39,084 nt of DNA from the IMG/VR virus record IMGVR_UViG_3300031696_001483, positions 1 to 39,084 of that record. The stretch is one strand, 5' to 3'. Source of the stretch: a virus. A program made the position numbers and the translations under genes. Under the pieces are notes generated by a model. It had not been told where the DNA came from. It did not search any database and was given only the letters and a program-made list of their open reading frames with translations. Of this stretch, positions 4,739 through 31,220 are shown in pieces (the stretch's first letter is position 1; each line of letters starts with the position of its first letter).

Positions 4739-5643
4739 ACCCAAGCCAAGAAAAGGTAAAACAATTACACATTGAACCTACTACACGGTGTACACTTGCC
4801 TGCCCACGATGTGAACGTACGGTTTTAATTAACAAATTTGGTAACAAGTTTGTACAGCAGGATATTAATATACAAGACTTAGATAAGTTTATTAATGTGC
4901 CAGTTGACACTATATACATGTGCGGTAACCTTGGAGATCCAATATATCATAAGGACTTTCATACACTTGTGAGCACACTACGACATAAGACTAAACAAAT
5001 AAGAATTGTCACTAACGGCAGTTATAGAAAACTAGAATGGTGGGAACAGTTGAGCAAGTTACTAGAGCCGCAGGATGAGATATCATTTAGCGTAGACGGT
5101 GTTCCGGACAATTTTACTGAATATAGAGTTAATGGAGATTGGGATAGCATTGAACCGGCAATACGTACAATGGCGGCTAGTCCTGCTATTGTAATTTGGA
5201 AATATATACCGTTTGCATATAATGAGAATAGTATAGACGAGGCGAGGCAACTAAGTGTAGATTTAGGCGTTGATCAGTTTATAATTGACCCAAGTGATAG
5301 ATGGTTGGGAGAAGACGATCCATATAAAACTATTAAAGAGTATGATAAGAGGTATGTTGCTGGAGGTTCAGAATATGATAGTGAAAACATTAATGTTGAC
5401 CCTAGGTGTGTAAGATTAGACAAACATCATTTTATTAGTGCAGACGGTTTTTATACTCCGTGTTGTTATGTAAAACATCATAGTTTTTACTATAAAAGCG
5501 AGTGGCATAATAATAAGCATAATATAAAGAATACGAAGTTAAGTAAAGAACTAGACTACTTTTGGACAAAGTTTGCTAATACCTTACCAGATAATAATTA
5601 TTGTAGATTTTATTGCGGAAAAAAAGAAAAGATAACACAATGA
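4729..5643 (+). CDS. Radical SAM protein with C-terminal SPASM-like cysteines
   Basis: The product has 304 residues. The motif CTLACPRC (C21, C25, C28) follows the first strand. A glycine-rich NLGDP stretch near residue 63 stands where GGE is expected. The C-terminal part holds a Cys in DPRC, the PCCYV pair and CRFYC close to the end, a layout fitting a SPASM-type auxiliary cluster. SPASM proteins usually modify peptides or proteins, but divergent phage members have unknown substrates. The start lies within the end of the carbamoyltransferase gene, and its TGA overlaps the DUF59 gene start. An Fe-S assembly gene next door makes biochemical sense for a two-cluster enzyme. Confidence 0.85.
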   Translation: MFLNPSQEKVKQLHIEPTTRCTLACPRCERTVLINKFGNKFVQQDINIQDLDKFINVPVDTIYMCGNLGDPIYHKDFHTLVSTLRHKTKQIRIVTNGSYRKLEWWEQLSKLLEPQDEISFSVDGVPDNFTEYRVNGDWDSIEPAIRTMAASPAIVIWKYIPFAYNENSIDEARQLSVDLGVDQFIIDPSDRWLGEDDPYKTIKEYDKRYVAGGSEYDSENINVDPRCVRLDKHHFISADGFYTPCCYVKHHSFYYKSEWHNNKHNIKNTKLSKELDYFWTKFANTLPDNNYCRFYCGKKEKITQ

Positions 5644-5939
5644 TAGACAAAGAACATATTATAGCAAAATTACGTGAAGTGTTTGACCCTGAAATAAGCA
5701 TTAATATATACGACCTTGGGTTAATATACGATATCAATATTAATCAAGATGATTTTTGGGTAGAAATTACTCATACATTAACTAGTGCATTTTGTCCATT
5801 CGCAGATCAGATCGTTAGTGATATAACGGGTGCAGGTTATGCACCAGATGTTCTTAACGTTGAGGTGATAACAACTTTCGATCCTCCATTTACTATAGAT
5901 AGTGTGCCGGAAGAAACAAAAATGATAATGGGATGGTAA
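5640..5939 (+). CDS. DUF59 / MIP18-family Fe-S assembly protein (SufT/PaaD-like)
   Basis: From the coupled ATG at 5640 (ATGA overlap) the product has 99 residues. The family pattern is clear: VFDPEISINIYDLGLIYDI near residues 14-32, then the conserved THTLTSAFCP segment with C52, and a C-terminal TFDPPFTIDSVPEE. This is a stand-alone DUF59 domain, as in SufT and PaaD, which help mature Fe-S proteins. Two radical SAM proteins upstream, and QueE elsewhere in the window, are plausible clients. That link is inferred from position. Confidence 0.88.
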   Translation: MIDKEHIIAKLREVFDPEISINIYDLGLIYDININQDDFWVEITHTLTSAFCPFADQIVSDITGAGYAPDVLNVEVITTFDPPFTIDSVPEETKMIMGW

Positions 5940-6385
5940 TGAAACAGAAACATAAAATAGCACATATGAAATCAGCATTTAATTATGCTGAGTGTTCAAC
6001 CGCGGTTCGCCTTCAAGTTGGATGTGTGTTAGTTAAAGACAATCGTATTATTAGTATCGGCTACAATGGCACGCCATCTGGGTGGGATAACGAGTGTGAG
6101 AATTCAGTTCTATGGAAAGACGGTAAGCAATTATCAAAACCAGTGCTGATATCCAAGCCAGAGGTTCTACATGCAGAATCAAACGCCATTTGTAAACTTG
6201 CTCGCAGTAGTGAGAGTGGAGAGGGTGCAACGGCATTCGTAACACATCAACCTTGTTTGGATTGTGCTAAACTACTCTACCAGAGCGGTGTTACTGAAGT
6301 ATATTATGTACATGAATATCGTAAAACAGATGGCGTTGATTTCCTTTCAAAATGTAAAATTAAAGTAGAGCAGATTGCAATATAA
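5939..6385 (+). CDS. Deoxycytidylate (dCMP) deaminase family protein
   Basis: The product is 148 residues from ATG 5939, which overlaps the upstream stop as TAATG; an ATG two codons earlier is also possible. The zinc-dependent deaminase motifs are present: HAESNAI (zinc His plus catalytic Glu) and PCLDC, which supplies two zinc cysteines. A GYNGTPSGWDN segment is typical of dCMP deaminases. The reaction turns dCMP into dUMP, feeding thymidylate synthesis by the ThyX encoded at 9.1 kb on the other strand. An extra insert before HAESNAI, with a Cys in NECEN, is usual for phage members. Confidence 0.9.
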   Translation: MKQKHKIAHMKSAFNYAECSTAVRLQVGCVLVKDNRIISIGYNGTPSGWDNECENSVLWKDGKQLSKPVLISKPEVLHAESNAICKLARSSESGEGATAFVTHQPCLDCAKLLYQSGVTEVYYVHEYRKTDGVDFLSKCKIKVEQIAI

Positions 6386-6387
6386 AG

Positions 6388-7629
6388 ATGTTTGACATAT
6401 TCTGCATGCAGATCACAGAACACGATGTTGATCTGCCGGCCCATACACAATACACTCGTTGGAACGGTACCCATTTAGATACTATTCGTAGATGCGTTAA
6501 TCGTGCTAAAACAGAGTATGTCTGGATCGTAGCAGACTGTTGCAATTATGCAACATTCGATTTCACATGGCAACCCGTGCCCTGGGAAGCAGACCAGATA
6601 CACTGCTGGGCAAGCGGAAATCAGAAATTTGGTGATACATTCCTAGTGCCAGTGGACGCTTTTAAGCGTCAGCAAGCGGGTCTAGCGTTATTAGAGTGGT
6701 ATGAGCATATAAACTGGCATAGTGAGCCCTGTGTGCCCCGCTACGAATGGCCCACAGTTGGTAGTTTAGATGAACAGACTAGCTTGTACGCATGGATCAA
6801 GCAAACCCCCGCTGACATTGACTTTGAGCCTAGCTTATGGAAAAAACGTGATCTACACGTCTTTAACAAGAGCGGGAGCGTACTACTAACGCCGCGGGAC
6901 TGTAAAACGCAATTTAAGGACCAATTCTATGACTACCCATACATCTTGCGTCATACCGACTATAAAGTAGAAGAAAAACCACTAGATGTTGTGTATCTTT
7001 CAAATGGTGAGGAAAACGCTGATAAAAATTACTTCTTACTAAAGTGTATGCAGCCAAATGCCAAGCGAATTGATGGAATAACAGGCAGAGCAGAGGCATA
7101 TAAAGCCTGCGCAGAGGCTAGCGACACTCCTTGGTTCTTTAATGTGTTTGCTAAGTGTGAGGTATTGCCTGACTTTGATTTTAACTGGCAACCCGATTGG
7201 CTGCAAGGCCCCAAACACTGGATTTTTAATGCACGTAATCCTGTTAACGGACTAGAGTACGGGCATATGGGTATTATTGCATACCATACGCAAACTGTAC
7301 TAGAGCAAACTGAGTGGGGTCTAGACTTTACTCTTAGTGCCAGACACGGGGTTATTCCCGTTGTTGGCAGTATTGCTGAGTTCAACACAGACCCATACGC
7401 TACATGGCGCACATCGTTTAGAGAATGTATTAAACTAACCCAACAGACAGACATAGAGAGTCGTTACAGATTAAAGATATGGAGTACTGTTGGAGAGGGT
7501 GATTTTTCTGAGTGGAGTATTAAGGGAGCAACTGATGCTGTTGAATTTGTGGCTAGCGGAGAGGACCTACGCAGCACCTTTGAATGGGCTTACCTTAAAG
7601 AATTCTTTAATAGCAAGTATAACAGCTAA
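6388..7629 (+). CDS. Glycosyltransferase-like protein with two tandem similar domains
   Basis: The 413-residue product contains an internal duplication. The segment around residues 30-95 (YVWIVADCC, then FDFTWQPVPW, then HCWASGN) resembles residues 250-310 (WFFNVFAKCEV, then FDFNWQPDWL, then HWIFNAR). The second unit begins with DVVYLSNGEENADKNY and a run up to ACAEASDTPWFF. This resembles a family of phage proteins distantly related to GT-A glycosyltransferases, where an acidic site follows such a segment, but this is recognition by eye. The gene begins 3 nt after the dCMP deaminase stop. Its last 63 nt overlap the end of the oppositely oriented aminotransferase gene. Confidence 0.6.
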   Translation: MFDIFCMQITEHDVDLPAHTQYTRWNGTHLDTIRRCVNRAKTEYVWIVADCCNYATFDFTWQPVPWEADQIHCWASGNQKFGDTFLVPVDAFKRQQAGLALLEWYEHINWHSEPCVPRYEWPTVGSLDEQTSLYAWIKQTPADIDFEPSLWKKRDLHVFNKSGSVLLTPRDCKTQFKDQFYDYPYILRHTDYKVEEKPLDVVYLSNGEENADKNYFLLKCMQPNAKRIDGITGRAEAYKACAEASDTPWFFNVFAKCEVLPDFDFNWQPDWLQGPKHWIFNARNPVNGLEYGHMGIIAYHTQTVLEQTEWGLDFTLSARHGVIPVVGSIAEFNTDPYATWRTSFRECIKLTQQTDIESRYRLKIWSTVGEGDFSEWSIKGATDAVEFVASGEDLRSTFEWAYLKEFFNSKYNS

Positions 7630-11446: not shown

Positions 11447-12739
11447 TTAGTTTTTCACCATATCATAGTAGGCATAATTACCAAACGGTGGCTTAATACT
11501 GTCTGGGCCATGAATCACAAATACTGTATCACAAAAATCTGGATCGCCCCAGCTTCCCATTGGATAACCATCAGTAAACATTACAAAGCGATTGGGTTGT
11601 ATATCTTCAGCTTTCATATAGTTCCAATTGCACATAAAGTCTGTTCCACCACCGCCCATTGGGGTGTAGTCCATGATCTCATCAATATTATCAGCAGTAA
11701 ATTCTGCATAGTTGTATACGCCAGTATCAAAACACCACAACTTAATAGTAAAGTCAGTGTACATTTCCATAATAGCCTTGATCTCTGAGAAAAATTCACC
11801 TGCTTGTTCGTTACTAATACTGCCGCTCATGTCAACGCCAATGCTAATATCAATCATAGTTTCAGGAACCATACCAGGCAGTAATACCCCACTGTAAAAG
11901 CCTTTGCGTGAAGAACGTTGGAAACTATAGTCACTCTTAATTGAACTCTCAATACTCATCGCAAGTAACGCTCTCCAATCCATCTTAGGCTCAGTAAGAT
12001 CCTTGATAATACGCTGCACTCCGCCTGGAAGATCCCCAACATTGCCACTCTGCTTGGCACTATTAATCAAAGACTCTTTAATCTCATCCCTAATCTGTTT
12101 CTTTTCGTCTTCGCTATATGATGGCTTTTCCTTGCTAACAAGGTCACCGTTCTCATCTTCTTGTGGAGCAGACCCCTCGCCCTCACTGTCATCTCCTTGG
12201 AGGTGTTCATCTAGCAACTTATCAATTAGGTCTTCAAGATCAATCTTCTCCATGTTATCGAATAGATGATCGTAAATTTCTTCCATGCTCATACCATAAT
12301 ACTTAGGATCATGTAATGCAGGAACAGTAGTAATCAGTTTACCAATTTTAGCCTGTACAAGGTCACCATTAACAGCAAAATCCGCCGCAACGTTTGCCAG
12401 CATATGATTATGCTTGAGCATTGTACTGCGACCAAGATGCTCATATACATTATGAAGCACTTCATGTCCAAAAAGGAACTGCACTTCTTTTTTCTTGAGC
12501 ATGTTAATAAATTTGCTGCTATAGTAAAAATAACGCCCATCAGTTGCCGCTGTTGGGCACCAAGCGTCTGCGTTAACCAAGGGCAAGCGTGTAGCCATGT
12601 TGCCAAACCAAGGAGCCTTCATAAGAAGTGCTACACGGCCAACAGTTAGTGCTTCACGGGCCTGGTGATCTTCTGCAGGAACGGTTTCGTATCCTACTGG
12701 AAGGTCAACGTCTTTTTTGTTTGATGTAGTTTTAGGCAT
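11447..12739 (-). CDS. Putative metallopeptidase with VWA domain (MoxR partner)
   Basis: The 430-residue product has an N-terminal zinc-peptidase-like motif HEVLH at 92-96, an acidic linker at about 160-225 and a C-terminal von Willebrand A domain with MIDAS DMSGS (D303, S305, S307) and a later TDGYP loop. This domain order matches the DUF2201-type 'metal-dependent peptidase plus VWA' family. Such proteins work beside MoxR AAA ATPases, one of which is encoded at 15.5 kb. The GGAG ribosome binding site lies before ATG 12739, and a TAGACA-N16-TATTAT promoter stands 30 nt upstream. The target is unknown. Confidence 0.85.
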   Translation of the reverse strand: MPKTTSNKKDVDLPVGYETVPAEDHQAREALTVGRVALLMKAPWFGNMATRLPLVNADAWCPTAATDGRYFYYSSKFINMLKKKEVQFLFGHEVLHNVYEHLGRSTMLKHNHMLANVAADFAVNGDLVQAKIGKLITTVPALHDPKYYGMSMEEIYDHLFDNMEKIDLEDLIDKLLDEHLQGDDSEGEGSAPQEDENGDLVSKEKPSYSEDEKKQIRDEIKESLINSAKQSGNVGDLPGGVQRIIKDLTEPKMDWRALLAMSIESSIKSDYSFQRSSRKGFYSGVLLPGMVPETMIDISIGVDMSGSISNEQAGEFFSEIKAIMEMYTDFTIKLWCFDTGVYNYAEFTADNIDEIMDYTPMGGGGTDFMCNWNYMKAEDIQPNRFVMFTDGYPMGSWGDPDFCDTVFVIHGPDSIKPPFGNYAYYDMVKN

Positions 12740-12810: not shown

Positions 12811-12842
12811 AAAAAAGGACCCAAGGACCCTAGGGTCCTTTA
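12811..12842 (-). terminator. Rho-independent terminator after the HNH gene
   Basis: On the minus strand, AAAGGACCC can pair with GGGTCCTTT followed by a T run (TTTTTT), and an 18-bp perfect palindrome AAGGACCCTAGGGTCCTT (12823-12840) lies within. It sits 24 nt past the stop of the HNH nuclease gene and before the promoter of the VWA gene, so it separates the nuclease cassette from the next unit. Confidence 0.85.
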
Positions 12843-12865
12843 ATTGGTTACTCTTTTCTCAAATA

Positions 12866-13309
12866 TTATACGTTTTGGTTACTCGGAGTGAGTGTGTCTC
12901 CGTTTATCACCGTTTTAATTGCATGACATACAGTACAAAGCGTCTGATGATTTTCTGGGTCGTTATTCTCGTGATTACCATCAATATGATCCACGGTTAG
13001 TAAAGTACGACACAATCGGTTACGAAGTTTGTCATCTTCCACTTCCTGTACTCGTGTATCAGTAAATGGTGTATAACCACATTCTTGACAATGAGTACCT
13101 TTGTTTTGACTATATGGTTTTGCAGCATTCGCTAACCCTCCATAATCTGAAAGATTCTTCTGATGTACTCTGCATAGTGTATCACTACCAGGTCCTTGAT
13201 ACGCTGTTAGGAAGTCATTGCAACCTGCATGAGTACATCTTGATTTACGGGCGGTACGAAGTAATAGGCCTTCTTTAAGAAGATCCAGGCTTGGGTCTCG
13301 CAGTATCAT
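12866..13309 (-). CDS. HNH endonuclease with zinc-finger cysteines
   Basis: From ATG 13309 (GGAG six bases upstream, one base after the previous stop) the product has 147 residues. A CQECGYTPF zinc half-site is followed by TVDHIDGNHENNDPENHQTLCTVCH, the HNH nuclease core with its second CxxC. An additional C-x-H-x3-C cluster lies near residue 20. It resembles endonuclease VII-like and HNH proteins of T4-like phages and should cut DNA with one metal ion. It is the last gene of a three-gene operon ending at the terminator at 12.8 kb. Confidence 0.85.
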   Translation of the reverse strand: MILRDPSLDLLKEGLLLRTARKSRCTHAGCNDFLTAYQGPGSDTLCRVHQKNLSDYGGLANAAKPYSQNKGTHCQECGYTPFTDTRVQEVEDDKLRNRLCRTLLTVDHIDGNHENNDPENHQTLCTVCHAIKTVINGDTLTPSNQNV

Positions 13310-13310
13310 T

Positions 13311-13901
13311 TTAATCTCCAAAGTCAAAAAAACTGTTGCACTCTGCATTTGAAATACTTTCCATGCGTTCCATAATGTCATTAGGAATACGCAATTCCCA
13401 ACTGGTATTTGATTGTTTTTCCAGCTGCATCCAGTCACCTACATGACGAATATATGTCCGTTCATCGCTAATTCCATTTTCAAGAATATTTTGAATATTC
13501 TTGTACGCTTTTTCAAGGTTATCTTGTATCTTTAGCGAAGTAAAATCGTAAATTTGTTCTGATTTTACTACATTTTTGCAAGTGGTTACATCTTTGTCGT
13601 AGGTTATCCTAAGTTGCGTTTGTAACTTGCCTCTTAAATGACTATCTTTCCATTCAGTAGATATAATATCTTTAATAGTAGATGCTCCTACGGTATGTGG
13701 ACTATTGCTACTACGCATTCGTGTTTTAATTTCAGTAGCTAGATCAACTAAGTCCAATCCTTTGCCTTTATTAAGCCTGTGTCCGCCTTTTTCGATTTCA
13801 TTTTCTACCCACCGTCCGATATTACCACAGTTCTGCTCCATAGGAATTACAGTACCAGGCTTCATAGTGTGTTTAACTGATTTTAATTTTATGTTATTCA
13901 T
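13311..13901 (-). CDS. Candidate PD-(D/E)XK restriction-like endonuclease
   Basis: The 196-residue product has the pattern GKGLDLVDLATEIKTR at about 47-61, with D50, E57 and K59 placed as D-x6-E-x-K, and E34 in an upstream helix (RWVENEIE). This matches the active site of type II restriction-like enzymes, where a short strand carries the acidic residue and ExK. The rest is charged and helical, with no zinc cluster. Its ATG overlaps the ParB-like gene stop by ATGA, and the HNH nuclease gene follows after one base. The assignment rests on the motif alone, so the enzymatic call is an inference. Confidence 0.5.
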   Translation of the reverse strand: MNNIKLKSVKHTMKPGTVIPMEQNCGNIGRWVENEIEKGGHRLNKGKGLDLVDLATEIKTRMRSSNSPHTVGASTIKDIISTEWKDSHLRGKLQTQLRITYDKDVTTCKNVVKSEQIYDFTSLKIQDNLEKAYKNIQNILENGISDERTYIRHVGDWMQLEKQSNTSWELRIPNDIMERMESISNAECNSFFDFGD

Positions 13902-15133
13902 GCTCCTAATTCCTTATCTTCAAAATCATATTGAAATTTGCCAATAAACACCGGAAGTTCGTATTTAAATCCCGCTAGTTTAATTGCCTGGATGATCCAT
14001 GTAGGCGCCACTTCTGTTTGGTTACAACGTGTATCAAATTGCTCACGTACACGGTAATGCTGACGAGTTAGCCAGCTCTTGTAGCCATTCATTACCATAG
14101 TGTGCTTGCGGTGGGACTTAGTATAGCCTTTCTGCCAGGTATTACCAGTTACTGCTCCAAGATACTTAACAATCTGGCGGATATAATCAGTGTCTACTGT
14201 AATACCCTGCTGATCACAGGCACGGAAGATGTGTGCCATGTTGTCAATTTCTAGAGGTTCAATTGGAAGATCGGGGTTACTAAGACTATGATACTCAAAC
14301 ACGTTACTGAGTACTGAACTTTTCCATTTGTTTACGTCACGACCTGTTGGGAAGATTTCTGACGGACGTGAAACTGCCCCTGCTTCCTTTGTGTCACTAA
14401 ATTTTTCGTGGGTAAAAAAACAACCAAATTTTTCTAGTGCTGTTTGGATTTCTGCAAACCTTATGCTCCATGGATCACTATCATCATTATGCCGAACTGC
14501 ATATACATACTGCATAAACAGATCAATCTTATCTAGTGGCTTGGTCATTGTATTGTCATGAACTCCAATAAAACGCTGCCGGAGTTTGGCAATATTATGG
14601 TTTGGGTGGATTGCTGTTGGAACTTCTAGTTTTAGGGCATCCTCGACGCTCATTCCAAAAGCATATAATGCAATACACATTAAAACAAACGAGGTATGTT
14701 GTCCATCCCAGATGGCATGCGCCGCTTGACCATCTTGACCATCCACAATGGGATATACTCTAATACTGTTGACAAAAAATGGATCAAATTTGCCCATAAT
14801 GGCAATTAACCAGTCAATATCTACTTTGCGCTGAATTACAGTATTAATTAGCATGTCACCAAGCGTGAGTCGCATCTTTGGATCCATAGGTATTTGGACC
14901 ATGTCAGTATACATGTCTTCAAACTTAGAATATTGTGGGTGTCGATTTCGGAATTCTGTTCCGATTTGATCTCGAAGGAAGGCAGGCAGTTCTGGATCCT
15001 CGTTAATAAATGCGTCAGTAAAACGATCTACTAAACTTACAATAGTATCTTCGGATGTTTGGAATTTGTCGTTTACGCTGTCTGCGTATGATATCGTATC
15101 AGAATCTGATACGATCTGTAATGTAACACTCAT
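13898..15133 (-). CDS. ParB/DGQHR-like domain protein
   Basis: From ATG 15133 (AAGGAA nine bases upstream) the product has 411 residues. IWDGQHTSFVL, with DGQH at 143-146, matches the core of ParB-type and DGQHR-type domains (usually DGQHR). Some members bind CTP or nucleotides and act in DNA partition, phosphorothioation control or nicking. The C-terminal 200 residues are helical and unrecognised. It heads the operon with the PD-(D/E)XK-like and HNH nucleases, under a promoter loaded with inverted repeats. A role in controlling or guiding the nucleases is possible but unproven. Confidence 0.65.
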   Translation of the reverse strand: MSVTLQIVSDSDTISYADSVNDKFQTSEDTIVSLVDRFTDAFINEDPELPAFLRDQIGTEFRNRHPQYSKFEDMYTDMVQIPMDPKMRLTLGDMLINTVIQRKVDIDWLIAIMGKFDPFFVNSIRVYPIVDGQDGQAAHAIWDGQHTSFVLMCIALYAFGMSVEDALKLEVPTAIHPNHNIAKLRQRFIGVHDNTMTKPLDKIDLFMQYVYAVRHNDDSDPWSIRFAEIQTALEKFGCFFTHEKFSDTKEAGAVSRPSEIFPTGRDVNKWKSSVLSNVFEYHSLSNPDLPIEPLEIDNMAHIFRACDQQGITVDTDYIRQIVKYLGAVTGNTWQKGYTKSHRKHTMVMNGYKSWLTRQHYRVREQFDTRCNQTEVAPTWIIQAIKLAGFKYELPVFIGKFQYDFEDKELGA

Positions 15134-15195
15134 TTTAGTTTCCTTTGTATGCCTTAAAACAGGCCGGCTAAATATGCCCAATAAAAACGGGCTAT

Positions 15196-15251
15196 ATAAG
15201 TTGACTATCAACTTATTCTAGAATGATACTACACCTTTGTAGTATTGTCAA
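15196..15251 (-). promoter_or_regulatory. Strong promoter with two operator-like inverted repeats
   Basis: On the minus strand, TTGACA (15246-15251) is 17 nt from TATCAT (15223-15228). The spacer itself is an inverted repeat, ATACTAC-N6-GTAGTAT (15226-15245). A second perfect repeat, ATAAGTTGA-N3-TCAACTTAT (15196-15216), begins at about the expected transcription start. Both would suit repressor binding; the second could also form a 5' hairpin in the mRNA. It drives the ParB-like/nuclease operon. Confidence 0.75.
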
Positions 15252-15514: not shown

Positions 15515-16627
15515 CTATTCTTCATTTGCAGCCACCACATACTTGCCAAAGCGATCAAAGAATTCTTTGAAGTGCTTGAGCTTGTTAGGCTGGAACGGAA
15601 GGTTGTAGTTCGTAATTGCAGTACGGGCACCCATTACAGTCATTTCCGTTGGGAAGAAATCCATCATGAAGCGGAAGAAGTTATCTGCAAGCTCATGCCA
15701 CCGTTTAGCATCTTTCTTACCAAATTTGTCATATGCATCTTTAAGCTCATAGCACATGCCAATTGTAAGAGCATACTGGGCACTGATTTCTTTAATCTTA
15801 CACTCAGTAACCTTGCCTGCAAGGATATCTTCTGGATTTGGCATATCCTTTGCAACTTTACGGTGGATCATAAACTTAACTGCAATGCCTTCACCAACAC
15901 TACCAGCAACCAAGTCAGTTAGTTCGTTGTCTGAGATAGTTTCGTCCTGGAGAAATTCACTAACGAAACTCCAACTACGTGGAGTGGCAAAAGAACGTCC
16001 GCTTGACCGAGGATCAAAATCACACAAGTCTGCCTTAGCAAACGAGCAGTATCCAATAACGTCTTCGTGGATACGATTTTCAACAGCCCAATCCAACCAG
16101 CTATCAAAATCTACACGCAATTCCAAGTGAACAAACCGGTTAGCAAGTGGAGTAGGCATCCGGTACGTAACACCTTTGTCGCTCTCACGGTTGCCAGCGG
16201 CGACAATAACAACGTTGTCGGGCAACTGGTAAGCACCAATCCGCCGGTTAAGAGTTAGCTGATACCCTGCTGCTTGTACTGCAGGAGCTGCGCTGTTAAG
16301 CTCGTCCAAGAATAAAATAACGGTTTCATATTTTGCCGCTTGCTCTTCAGTAGGAAGATCTGAAGGAGGAAGCCATTGCATCTGCCCAGTTGCCAAATCA
16401 GGAACAGGATAGCCACGCAAATCTGTTGGCTCGAAAAGATTAAGTCGGAGATCGATAAGCAAGGTTTTTCCTAGTACTTCATCATCTGCAATCTGTTGCA
16501 TAAGATCCGATTTGCCGACGCCGGGAAGTGACCACACAAATAGTGGACGCTGAAGCCGCATCGCCCGCACAATGCGAGTCTTTGCTTCTGCAATAGTAAC
16601 TGTACGATTTGATATTTGTTCTGCCAT
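15515..16627 (-). CDS. MoxR-type AAA+ ATPase
   Basis: The product has 370 residues. Walker A is SLPGVGKSDL (G36-S40), Walker B is VILFLDELNSA near 104-114, and sensor-like AAGNRESDKG follows near 165. This is the MoxR/CbbQ AAA+ family, which remodels or inserts cofactors into partner proteins together with VWA-domain proteins. The expected VWA partner is encoded at 11.4 kb, separated by the nuclease cassette. A GGAGAGAG ribosome binding site precedes the ATG, and a promoter of the shared CAGAAACGGTAGACT class lies 33 nt upstream. Confidence 0.92.
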   Translation of the reverse strand: MAEQISNRTVTIAEAKTRIVRAMRLQRPLFVWSLPGVGKSDLMQQIADDEVLGKTLLIDLRLNLFEPTDLRGYPVPDLATGQMQWLPPSDLPTEEQAAKYETVILFLDELNSAAPAVQAAGYQLTLNRRIGAYQLPDNVVIVAAGNRESDKGVTYRMPTPLANRFVHLELRVDFDSWLDWAVENRIHEDVIGYCSFAKADLCDFDPRSSGRSFATPRSWSFVSEFLQDETISDNELTDLVAGSVGEGIAVKFMIHRKVAKDMPNPEDILAGKVTECKIKEISAQYALTIGMCYELKDAYDKFGKKDAKRWHELADNFFRFMMDFFPTEMTVMGARTAITNYNLPFQPNKLKHFKEFFDRFGKYVVAANEE

Positions 16628-22373: not shown

Positions 22374-23237
22374 TTAGGTTCCCCAGGAGTTTCCAAAGAT
22401 GTCGACGTGGAGTCTTGCTGAGTAACGATATCCTTTTGCCAGAGCAAGATCAGCCACCACCGCCCCATTGTTGAAGTAACTGTCTGATGTACCGCCAACA
22501 GGCATGATGTAAACCGGCGCACTAACCCCAGCTTTCCTATATATTTCAACAGCTTCGTCAACTTCTGCCACGTCCACTGCATCAGCCACCACAAACTTAA
22601 AATAAAGGTGACTATTACTAATATTGCGGTATTGATATGCAACATCAGGCTTAATAGCATCAGAACTATCATGTCCAGAAACTGATAGTTTTGGGGAGCA
22701 ACTGAATGTAACGTGTAATTTGTCATTATCGTTGAGATACGATTCGAAATTACTGTTGAGAGTCTGCGTAGTATTCGTTTCGAATGTAACATTTTGTAAG
22801 TCTTTCATACGTGGATGATCTAACAATTCCATGTAAGCTCGTTGCCATCCTAGTAGTGGTTCACCGCCAGTGATAACCAAATGTATATCCTGACCATTAT
22901 CTAACGTCCAACTACCGGATGGAGTTAGTTCTAGTAATGTATCTACAAGCCCGTCAATATCTGTGTCTGTCTGTAGATGCTTAAACGCTGGATGCCAAGC
23001 TGCATAGCTATCGCACCCAACTGTAACAAGTGGTAGTTCTTTAATGGTATTATATTTGTCAATATCATCAATAATAGCATTAATCTCTTGCTCAGCCGTT
23101 GCGTCACTATCTCTAGCAATACCAAATTTAGGGCATGTGAAGTTACACCCAAACATGCGTAGGAATACACTAGGCACTCCCATAAAACGGCCTTCGCCCT
23201 GTACAGAGTAAAATGCTTCTGTGTATCTTACTTTCAT
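22374..23237 (-). CDS. queE: 7-carboxy-7-deazaguanine synthase QueE (radical SAM)
   Basis: The 287-residue product starts MKVRYTEAFYSVQGEG, the QueE opening. C31 and C35 appear in FGCNFTCPKFG, but the usual third Cys two residues later is absent. The likely third ligand is C75 in TVGCDSYAAWHPAFKHL, as in the subfamily with a widely split cluster motif. VITGGEPLLGWQ near 117 is the GGE motif, and TFETNTTQ near 155 follows. It converts 6-carboxytetrahydropterin from QueD into CDG. An AGAGG ribosome binding site is present. Confidence 0.9.
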   Translation of the reverse strand: MKVRYTEAFYSVQGEGRFMGVPSVFLRMFGCNFTCPKFGIARDSDATAEQEINAIIDDIDKYNTIKELPLVTVGCDSYAAWHPAFKHLQTDTDIDGLVDTLLELTPSGSWTLDNGQDIHLVITGGEPLLGWQRAYMELLDHPRMKDLQNVTFETNTTQTLNSNFESYLNDNDKLHVTFSCSPKLSVSGHDSSDAIKPDVAYQYRNISNSHLYFKFVVADAVDVAEVDEAVEIYRKAGVSAPVYIMPVGGTSDSYFNNGAVVADLALAKGYRYSARLHVDIFGNSWGT

Positions 23238-23422: not shown

Positions 23423-23893
23423 CTACTCAAACTCGTTATCTTCTCTGTGACCAACTTTCATAGCCATATTCGAATCGGTTTCCCTTACCTCAACCTTACT
23501 GCACCAAACACGATTCTCTTCGCTGTAGTCCGGAAGTAATATAGTGTTACAGTACTCATATAAGAAGTCAGCTAACCCCTCGCACCCAGTCTTTTCAACT
23601 TCAGTAATTTTAGCAATGCCAAGTTTTCCTAGGTTTAATAAGTCCTCTCTGTGTGGATCATCTTGTGCTACTAGTAAGGTATGATCAAACCAATCTTCTA
23701 ATTTTTCTTTTAATGGACGGAGGCCACCAAAGTCCATGCACCAGTTACGGGCGTCTAACGTATCACACTCGAATTCAAAGTGAAAACTTAATGCATACCC
23801 GTGTACCATATTGCAATGACTGTCCGCCCGCCATTGGCGGTATGCGACTGGGCCTAGTTGTGTGTAAGATTTAGTACTAATATATTTTGCCAT
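23423..23893 (-). CDS. queD: 6-carboxy-tetrahydropterin synthase QueD
   Basis: The 156-residue product belongs to the QueD/PTPS fold. SHCNMVHGY at 25-33 holds the catalytic C27 and zinc residues H26 and H31, but the usual HGH reads HGY. CMDFGGLRPLKEKLEDWFDHTLLV at 52-75 contains the conserved DFG and the DH pair (D70-H71). VEVRET ends with E138, the base-binding glutamate. It makes 6-carboxytetrahydropterin from the triphosphate produced by FolE (31.2 kb). A strong promoter and a structured leader stand upstream. Confidence 0.9.
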   Translation of the reverse strand: MAKYISTKSYTQLGPVAYRQWRADSHCNMVHGYALSFHFEFECDTLDARNWCMDFGGLRPLKEKLEDWFDHTLLVAQDDPHREDLLNLGKLGIAKITEVEKTGCEGLADFLYEYCNTILLPDYSEENRVWCSKVEVRETDSNMAMKVGHREDNEFE

Positions 23894-30566: not shown

Positions 30567-31220
30567 ATGTTATTTATTCACAACAAATATACTAAATGGT
30601 ACTTTCGGATCATCGAGTCTGCTAAATCGAGCAACTTTGTAGGATACACCGAAAAGCATCATATCATCCCAAAATCGTTAGACGGAACTGACGAGAGTAA
30701 TAATATCGTCACCCTAACCCCTAGACAGCATTTCGTCTGTCATATGTTACTTACTAAAATGGCTCGTAGTAAAAAACATAAGCATAAAATGATTCATGCG
30801 AGTTGGGCTATGACTACACTTGAATATTCTGAACGGCAAGACCGACATAAAAACAATTCTAAATCATACGAATATTCAAGAAAACTGTATAGCAAGCATA
30901 TGTCAGAAAACAACCCAATGCACAATACTAAAATTCAAGCTCGTAGATTGGCAACTTGGAAAAGGAATAGAGCTGAAAAAGATTATATTCCGGTTCGTGT
31001 ATTAAAAGATAAGTTTGTTACTCCGGCTGGGATATTCAAAACTAAAAAAGCAATACAACAAGAGTTAGGAATACCTGAACATACACTTAACACCATCTAC
31101 GCCAATTTAGATGCTCTACCTACATCAAACGGTAGACGAAGTAAAAAGATAGAGCATCTAAATATCGACCCATCTAAAACTTGGAGAGACAATGGATTTG
31201 GATTAGTTTCCGTTCCTTGA
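30567..31220 (+). CDS. Free-standing HNH homing endonuclease-like protein
   Basis: The 217-residue product has EKHHIIPKSLDGTDESNN near 28-45, an HNH nuclease motif, and a basic middle. A C-terminal NUMOD-like DNA-binding region follows (FVTPAGIFKTKKAIQQELGIPEHTL). AAGGAA lies nine bases before the ATG. It is the only plus-strand gene between 11.4 kb and the right edge, sits between folE and the HAD gene, and its end overlaps the end of folE by 18 nt. This fits invasion of an intergenic site by a mobile endonuclease. Confidence 0.85.
   Translation: MLFIHNKYTKWYFRIIESAKSSNFVGYTEKHHIIPKSLDGTDESNNIVTLTPRQHFVCHMLLTKMARSKKHKHKMIHASWAMTTLEYSERQDRHKNNSKSYEYSRKLYSKHMSENNPMHNTKIQARRLATWKRNRAEKDYIPVRVLKDKFVTPAGIFKTKKAIQQELGIPEHTLNTIYANLDALPTSNGRRSKKIEHLNIDPSKTWRDNGFGLVSVP

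Follow-up and report, generated by a model that had tools for sequence, protein, structure and literature searches.

The locus considered here raises the question of what a group of nuclease-like genes is doing between the genes for a MoxR-type ATPase and a VWA protein. It is carried by a 39,084-base IMG/VR virus record (IMGVR_UViG_3300031696_001483), the whole of which is referred to as the window. The initial annotation described three coupled genes (ParB/DGQHR-like, PD-(D/E)XK-like and HNH) that had been inserted as a unit, with an operator-rich promoter and a terminator of their own, between two genes that usually work together, and suggested an attack or competition system of a phage with deazaguanine in its own DNA. 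ParB/DGQHR-plus-HNH enzymes are known as bacterial anti-phage weapons, and BrxU and SspE show a division of labour between a recognition or gating part and an HNH nuclease. The coupling and coordinates of the three genes and the presence of terminator-like stems were confirmed, and the family assignments were supported, the second one being more exactly MutH/Sau3AI (Table 1). It should be noted that the metallopeptidase-VWA protein matched phrog_1314 at 7e-93, whose label 'HNH endonuclease' looks like a mislabel for this protein. In addition, a homing-endonuclease-like open reading frame (phrog_655, 6.6e-36) was observed on the opposite strand at 30567-31220 (+).

Table 1 Features of the window and contents of the MoxR-VWA slot in other loci (L numbers are our locus handles)
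Feature	Location	Strand	Evidence or remark
Metallopeptidase-VWA (DUF2201), slot flank	11447-12739	-	PF13203 3e-28, PF09967 3e-13
Terminator-like stems followed by T-run	12816-12840	-	Sequence
HNH nuclease gene, 147 aa	12866-13309	-	One-base gap after 196-aa gene
MutH/Sau3AI-type nuclease gene (predicted), 196 aa	13311-13901	-	Overlaps 411-aa gene by ATGA
DGQHR/ParB-fold gene, 411 aa	13898-15133	-	Family alignment, AF2 model, Foldseek
Leader RNA	15134-15222	-	MFE -21.8 kcal/mol, z -2.1; three predicted hairpins
Sigma-70-type promoter TTGACA-17-TATCAT	15223-15251	-	11/12 consensus matches; cassette head
Small conserved gene, 85 aa	15253-15510	-	Slot border on MoxR side
MoxR-type AAA+ ATPase, slot flank	15515-16627	-	phrog_1297 E=4.5e-99
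Cargo: DGQHR-HNH pair	L109, L112, L114, L116, L132, L138
Cargo: pair and MutH	L120
Cargo: pair, then ResIII-type SF2 helicase	L129
Cargo: EHVVP protein and DGQHT protein	L133, L136
Cargo: DAQHR protein and HNH	L141
Cargo: DAQHS protein	L142		Contig ends
Cargo: DGQQR protein	L146		Contig ends
Cargo: ParB-type/NOV_C-like fusion, 414 aa	L121:8212-9456		N-terminal GGHTR, C-terminal NOV_C/PD-(D/E)XK-like; possible one-chain ParB-nuclease
Cargo: HNH alone	L128		GmrSD_C at 0.026
Cargo: N6/N4 methyltransferase and unannotated 368-aa ORF	L139:8482-10586		Methyltransferase 4e-35; candidate type II restriction-modification system with unfamiliar nuclease

The 411-aa protein itself matched no family model, including TIGR03187 (DGQHR), which was matched by 14 of 38 members of its family (best E-value 5.6e-6). 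The family alignment revealed three motifs, Q101-R102, W142-DGQHT-147 and F188-x3-H192; QR and WDGQHT were kept across the family, with FxxxN in most members and FxxxH in the window subgroup. QR, DGQH and FxxxN are the DGQHR-domain motifs given for GmrS and DndB (PMC4619093), and by sharing them the family resembles DGQHR proteins such as DndB and DpdB. Unlike DndB and DpdB, it has an obligate HNH neighbour, and no dnd or dpd genes were associated with it in the loci inspected. The fifth residue of the DGQHT motif is T, not R, and mutating the R of the DndI motif impaired phage resistance (PMC11662687). Because T replaces R, and H replaces the N of FxxxN in the window subgroup, NTP hydrolysis may be lost. 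The ParB-like assignment held up in structure prediction: the AF2 model (pLDDT 74.6) found ParB (probability 0.95, E=0.009), KorB and sulfiredoxins as its best Foldseek matches in PDB, with low global TM, and phage ParB/Srx proteins (7e-8) and phage sulfur-modification (DndB-type) proteins in BFVD, placing it in the ParB/Srx fold. As judged from motifs and model, the protein is a divergent member of the DGQHR/ParB-fold group; its gene appears to be under strong purifying selection (dN/dS about 0.05-0.12).

The 147-aa HNH protein matched phrog_1271 (E=6e-7) and, under the cut-off, Pfam HNH (E=0.003). It contains D107-H108 and C125-x2-C128-H129 plus an additional N-terminal Cys cluster, and the HNH signature is intact: D107, H108, C74, C77, C125, C128 and H129 were invariant in 11 HNH homologs. 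Sequence searches against solved structures gave weak HNH matches and otherwise chance matches. Direct searches identified homologs of the 411-aa protein in nine loci, each with an HNH gene immediately after it, and a profile search widened the family to 66 IMG/VR loci, 57 of which had HNH directly after the DGQHR gene. The spacing ranged from about -94 to +190 nt, mostly an overlap or 0 to 3 nt. After removal of identical copies, 41 non-identical pairs remained, with identities as low as about 21% for both proteins. DGQHR and HNH distances were correlated across these pairs (r=0.86; none of 2000 permutations was as high), part of which is expected from shared phage ancestry; the pairs occupy many unrelated contexts. 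The conserved unit is the DGQHR/ParB and HNH pair, not the trio. HNH was absent in the very distant family members L089, L090 and L092. Beside the DGQHT protein of L087, HNH is replaced by a 190-aa protein (6194-6766) containing EHVIP, and a 263-aa EHVVP protein lies upstream of the DGQHT protein in L133 (7440-8231). No kinship beyond the motif could be detected between these two proteins, which we would guess to be other nuclease types.

The pair resembles GmrSD, BrxU, SspE and DndI, in which a ParB/Srx-fold protein with QR, DGQ[QH] and FxxxN motifs works with an HNH nuclease. It differs from these DUF262-DUF1524 systems in consisting of two separate genes that are phage-borne, in uncultured phages only, and in its motifs: the window pair has DGQHT as against DGQQR of the GmrSD type, and a zinc-ribbon HNH (DHIDGN) as against the [ED]H-N-N type. 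PF03235 (DUF262) was neither matched by the window protein nor one of the 25 families hit most frequently by the 38 members, and the window HNH matched general HNH models alone, with no match to DUF1524/GmrSD_C. PADLOC system models also gave no good fit. GmrS and GmrD represent a two-chain form (PMC4619093); nicking by the HNH domain is NTPase-gated in GmrSD and DndI (PMC4619093, PMC11662687), and DndI combines nickase and NTPase activity in one fused protein (PMC11662687).

From how the pair is built and from what is known of GmrSD and DndI, we infer a two-chain gated nuclease. The DGQHR/ParB-fold protein would act as a recognition or gating subunit responsive to DNA and nucleotides, and the HNH protein would be the nuclease under its control on a separate chain, the two perhaps forming a physical complex gated by NTP or by DNA modification. 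The target would most likely be DNA competing with the phage, that is, co-infecting phage, plasmid or host DNA, and the benefit to the phage would lie in attack or competition. In the window phage, a MutH/Sau3AI-type gene has been spliced between the two partners, and the module occupies a MoxR-VWA slot that different phages load with different nuclease or restriction cassettes. We give about an even chance to this reading, in which the pair is a portable two-subunit DNA-cleaving module of large tailed phages that probably cuts phage-competing DNA.

The 196-aa protein between the partners is predicted to be a MutH/Sau3AI-type nuclease. Alone, it reached 14.9 bits with PF02976 (cut-off 23) and 0.0015 with the Sau3AI model, and a 26%-identical homolog in L063 scored 28.2 bits, above the Pfam MutH cut-off of 23. 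When it, together with two relatives, was aligned as a profile against MutH/Sau3AI by hhalign, a probability of 77 and a score of 40 were obtained, twice the maximum of 100 column shuffles (20.7); other families scored 10.9-17.9. D50, E57, K59 and K92 aligned with D70, E77, K79 and K116 of Escherichia coli MutH, giving the catalytic D-x6-E-x-K and downstream K. The AF2 model of the protein, built with three sequences, was not interpretable (pLDDT 36), so that membership of the MutH fold rests on sequence. Unlike MutH and Sau3AI, the gene had no linked methyltransferase or mismatch-repair partner that could be seen, and it lies in another operon as a recent splice.

The trio was rejected as a conserved unit, since the MutH-like gene lies inside the pair in two contigs only, the window and IMGVR_UViG_3300000101_003974 (L034/L120). 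Between them, the MutH-like gene showed 90-96% DNA identity and the flanking genes mostly 59-75%, with dS saturated or nearly so; the DGQHR gene was 59-73% identical, and the HNH gene rose from 66% to 81% toward its end. The shift in identity falls at the start and stop codons of the MutH-like gene. The junction reads TAATG in pair-only phages and is opened in the window to ...GC-ATGAATAAC...GAGATTAA-AATG. Because the MutH-like gene is far more identical than the flanking genes, it must have been spliced in recently. Its dN of 0.054 and dS of 0.088, which involve few changes, suggest weak constraint. Such a gene-sized recent insertion with sharp borders and relaxed constraint would be expected of a homing endonuclease gene. 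A divergent MutH-like gene (26-28% identical) is also found directly downstream of the pair in L063 and L083, indicating that a second MutH-pair association exists.

A promoter of its own had also been proposed for the cassette. It is present, with a near-consensus sequence, but one such promoter is not unusual here because TTGACA promoters are common in the window genome. Comparison across loci was more informative: a promoter with at least 11/12 matches was found upstream of 61% of 36 DGQHR-HNH pairs, compared with 15.5% of 322 other genes in these loci (Fisher p=1e-8; the data are non-independent, as the loci are related), and scores were just 8-9 for the HNH-less relatives L086, L089, L090 and L092. 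The pair is usually under its own strong promoter. The palindromes past the -10 box, described at first as operators, are better read as a hairpin-rich leader RNA, in the order of a 9-bp hairpin just past the -10 box, two small hairpins and the ribosome-binding site. This layout is repeated with differing sequences in L030-L038, L057 and L063; in these loci and the window, the first hairpin varies in sequence and keeps its pairing, and small GUUUUA-type loops follow. Orthologous loci repeat the palindromes with altered sequences and with G-U pairs, which points to RNA hairpins, and DNA operators at the cassette promoter were rejected. We make no regulatory claim for the leader, because hairpins of this sort may also be present after other phage promoters.

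Strong sigma-70-type promoters suggest transcription by the host polymerase, and the pair lies near DNA-metabolism genes in several contigs. Both would suit a role in host takeover or core DNA metabolism, in which the module attacks host DNA early by nicking or degradation, or acts in the processing of phage DNA. We consider such a role quite unlikely, as the pair is accessory: close relatives that share the backbone lack it, and its position is variable.

With regard to deazaguanine, the window contains QueE-like (22374-23237) and QueD-like (23423-23893) genes, both on the minus strand. QueD was found in 14 of 15 related records, with or without the DGQHR-HNH pair, which indicates that preQ0 synthesis belongs to the backbone of the group. 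No TGT/DpdA gene could be identified in 34 distinct related records; a very divergent phage DpdA could escape PF01702, and this absence is not proof. The suggestion that the phage's own DNA carries deazaguanine is therefore unsupported, and self-protection by deazaguanine was rejected as a link to the cassette, QueD not being tied to the pair. That a phage whose DNA is modified can afford to make nucleases against its host or competitors has already been argued by jumbo-phage authors (PMC7824862). Nor was any self-protection gene linked to the pair. In the HNH-less sister L090, the DGQHT protein is directly followed by an ABC-ATPase/GNAT fusion (4983-7303), a kind of protein for which acyl modification of DNA has been predicted (PMC7824862).

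The same genes bear on a DNA-modification or epigenetic role, in which the DGQHR protein would resemble DpdB or DndB in function, supporting or regulating modification of the bases or the backbone, and HNH would serve in regulatory nicking or quality control. Such a role would accommodate QueD and QueE in the window, the fusion in L090, the DndB-type sulfur-modification phage protein among the best fold matches and the one family member that matched DpdB (E=0.039). It is nevertheless highly improbable, considering that TGT/DpdA was missing from the 34 records, that QueD is equally present without the pair and that the flanks examined contained no modification gene accompanying the pair.

The place where the cassette lies also bears on the module reading. 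In a survey of eighty MoxR loci, MoxR and VWA were 44-171 nt apart with no cassette in at least 16, and in L123 and L124 only the 85-aa gene lay between them. This gene adjoins MoxR in most loci of the window subgroup, including cargo-free L123 and L124. The insertion between MoxR and VWA was thus borne out, the same site being empty or differently filled in relatives (Table 1). Across MoxR and the 85-aa gene, the DNA of L141 and L142 was 93% identical, the match stopping about where their differing cassettes begin, and L132 and L133 have flanks 85-90% identical on both sides and entirely different cargo. In profile comparison with the DGQHR family, the DAQHR, DAQHS and DGQQR slot proteins scored 37.8, 116.7 and 35.9, respectively (shuffle maxima 22-26), and are by this measure related to it. 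Behind the pair of L129 (9400-12639), a 185-aa protein that may carry a PD-(D/E)XK motif, the helicase and another open reading frame were observed, perhaps a second restriction system. Some slots contain unrelated genes, for example, prohibitin-like or dehydrogenase-like open reading frames identified by eye, and the slot is therefore not exclusive to nucleases. As far as locus comparison can tell, MoxR-VWA is a swap slot filled differently in different phages, and the predicted cargo supports a restriction-like theme. Group 2.2 jumbo phages likewise have a MoxR-vWA gene pair with VWA fused to a metallopeptidase domain (PMC7824862); unlike there, MoxR and VWA bracket a cargo slot in the window, and the text of that study does not contain ParB.

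The occurrence of the cassette at many different genomic positions, the exchange of cargo at a fixed slot and the HNH gene standing alone in L128 would also be expected of a selfish mobile unit, with a homing-like HNH, the DGQHR protein as its DNA-targeting helper, spread by marker exclusion and only secondary benefit to the phage; HNH folds are common in homing enzymes. This explanation appears unlikely, as it does not readily fit the co-divergence of two genes that have a promoter and leader of their own, the strong purifying selection on the DGQHR gene or a slot that also takes quite different cassettes. A wider form of the DNA-cleaving module is put forward tentatively, somewhat short of an even chance. 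Here, several DGQHR-type sensor subfamilies, each with a nuclease and a promoter, would constitute interchangeable restriction cassettes, swapped at the MoxR-VWA virion-assembly slot as phage-phage weapons, and the MutH-fold gene would be a free-standing mobile gene.

Searches of cultured phages by tblastn, with five members of the family as queries, recovered nothing related. The MutH-like protein likewise had no relatives in phages (window copy as query) or plasmids (L063 copy as query), nor did the DGQHR family in GTDB species genomes, where scans used few peptide patterns. Since genome scans were so limited, and the fold search lists similar uncharacterised cyanophage proteins, distant cultured relatives may exist. 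The component parts are of known kinds; our literature search returned neither the split DGQHR and HNH family seen in uncultured phages nor the slot that houses it. If the proposed role is true, this diverse set of split, phage-carried versions would add phages to the users of ParB/DGQHR-plus-HNH enzymes. The MoxR-VWA slot, with near-identical backbones bearing different nuclease cassettes, provides a defined place in which to seek further systems, and its cassettes make the purpose of phage nucleases directly testable.
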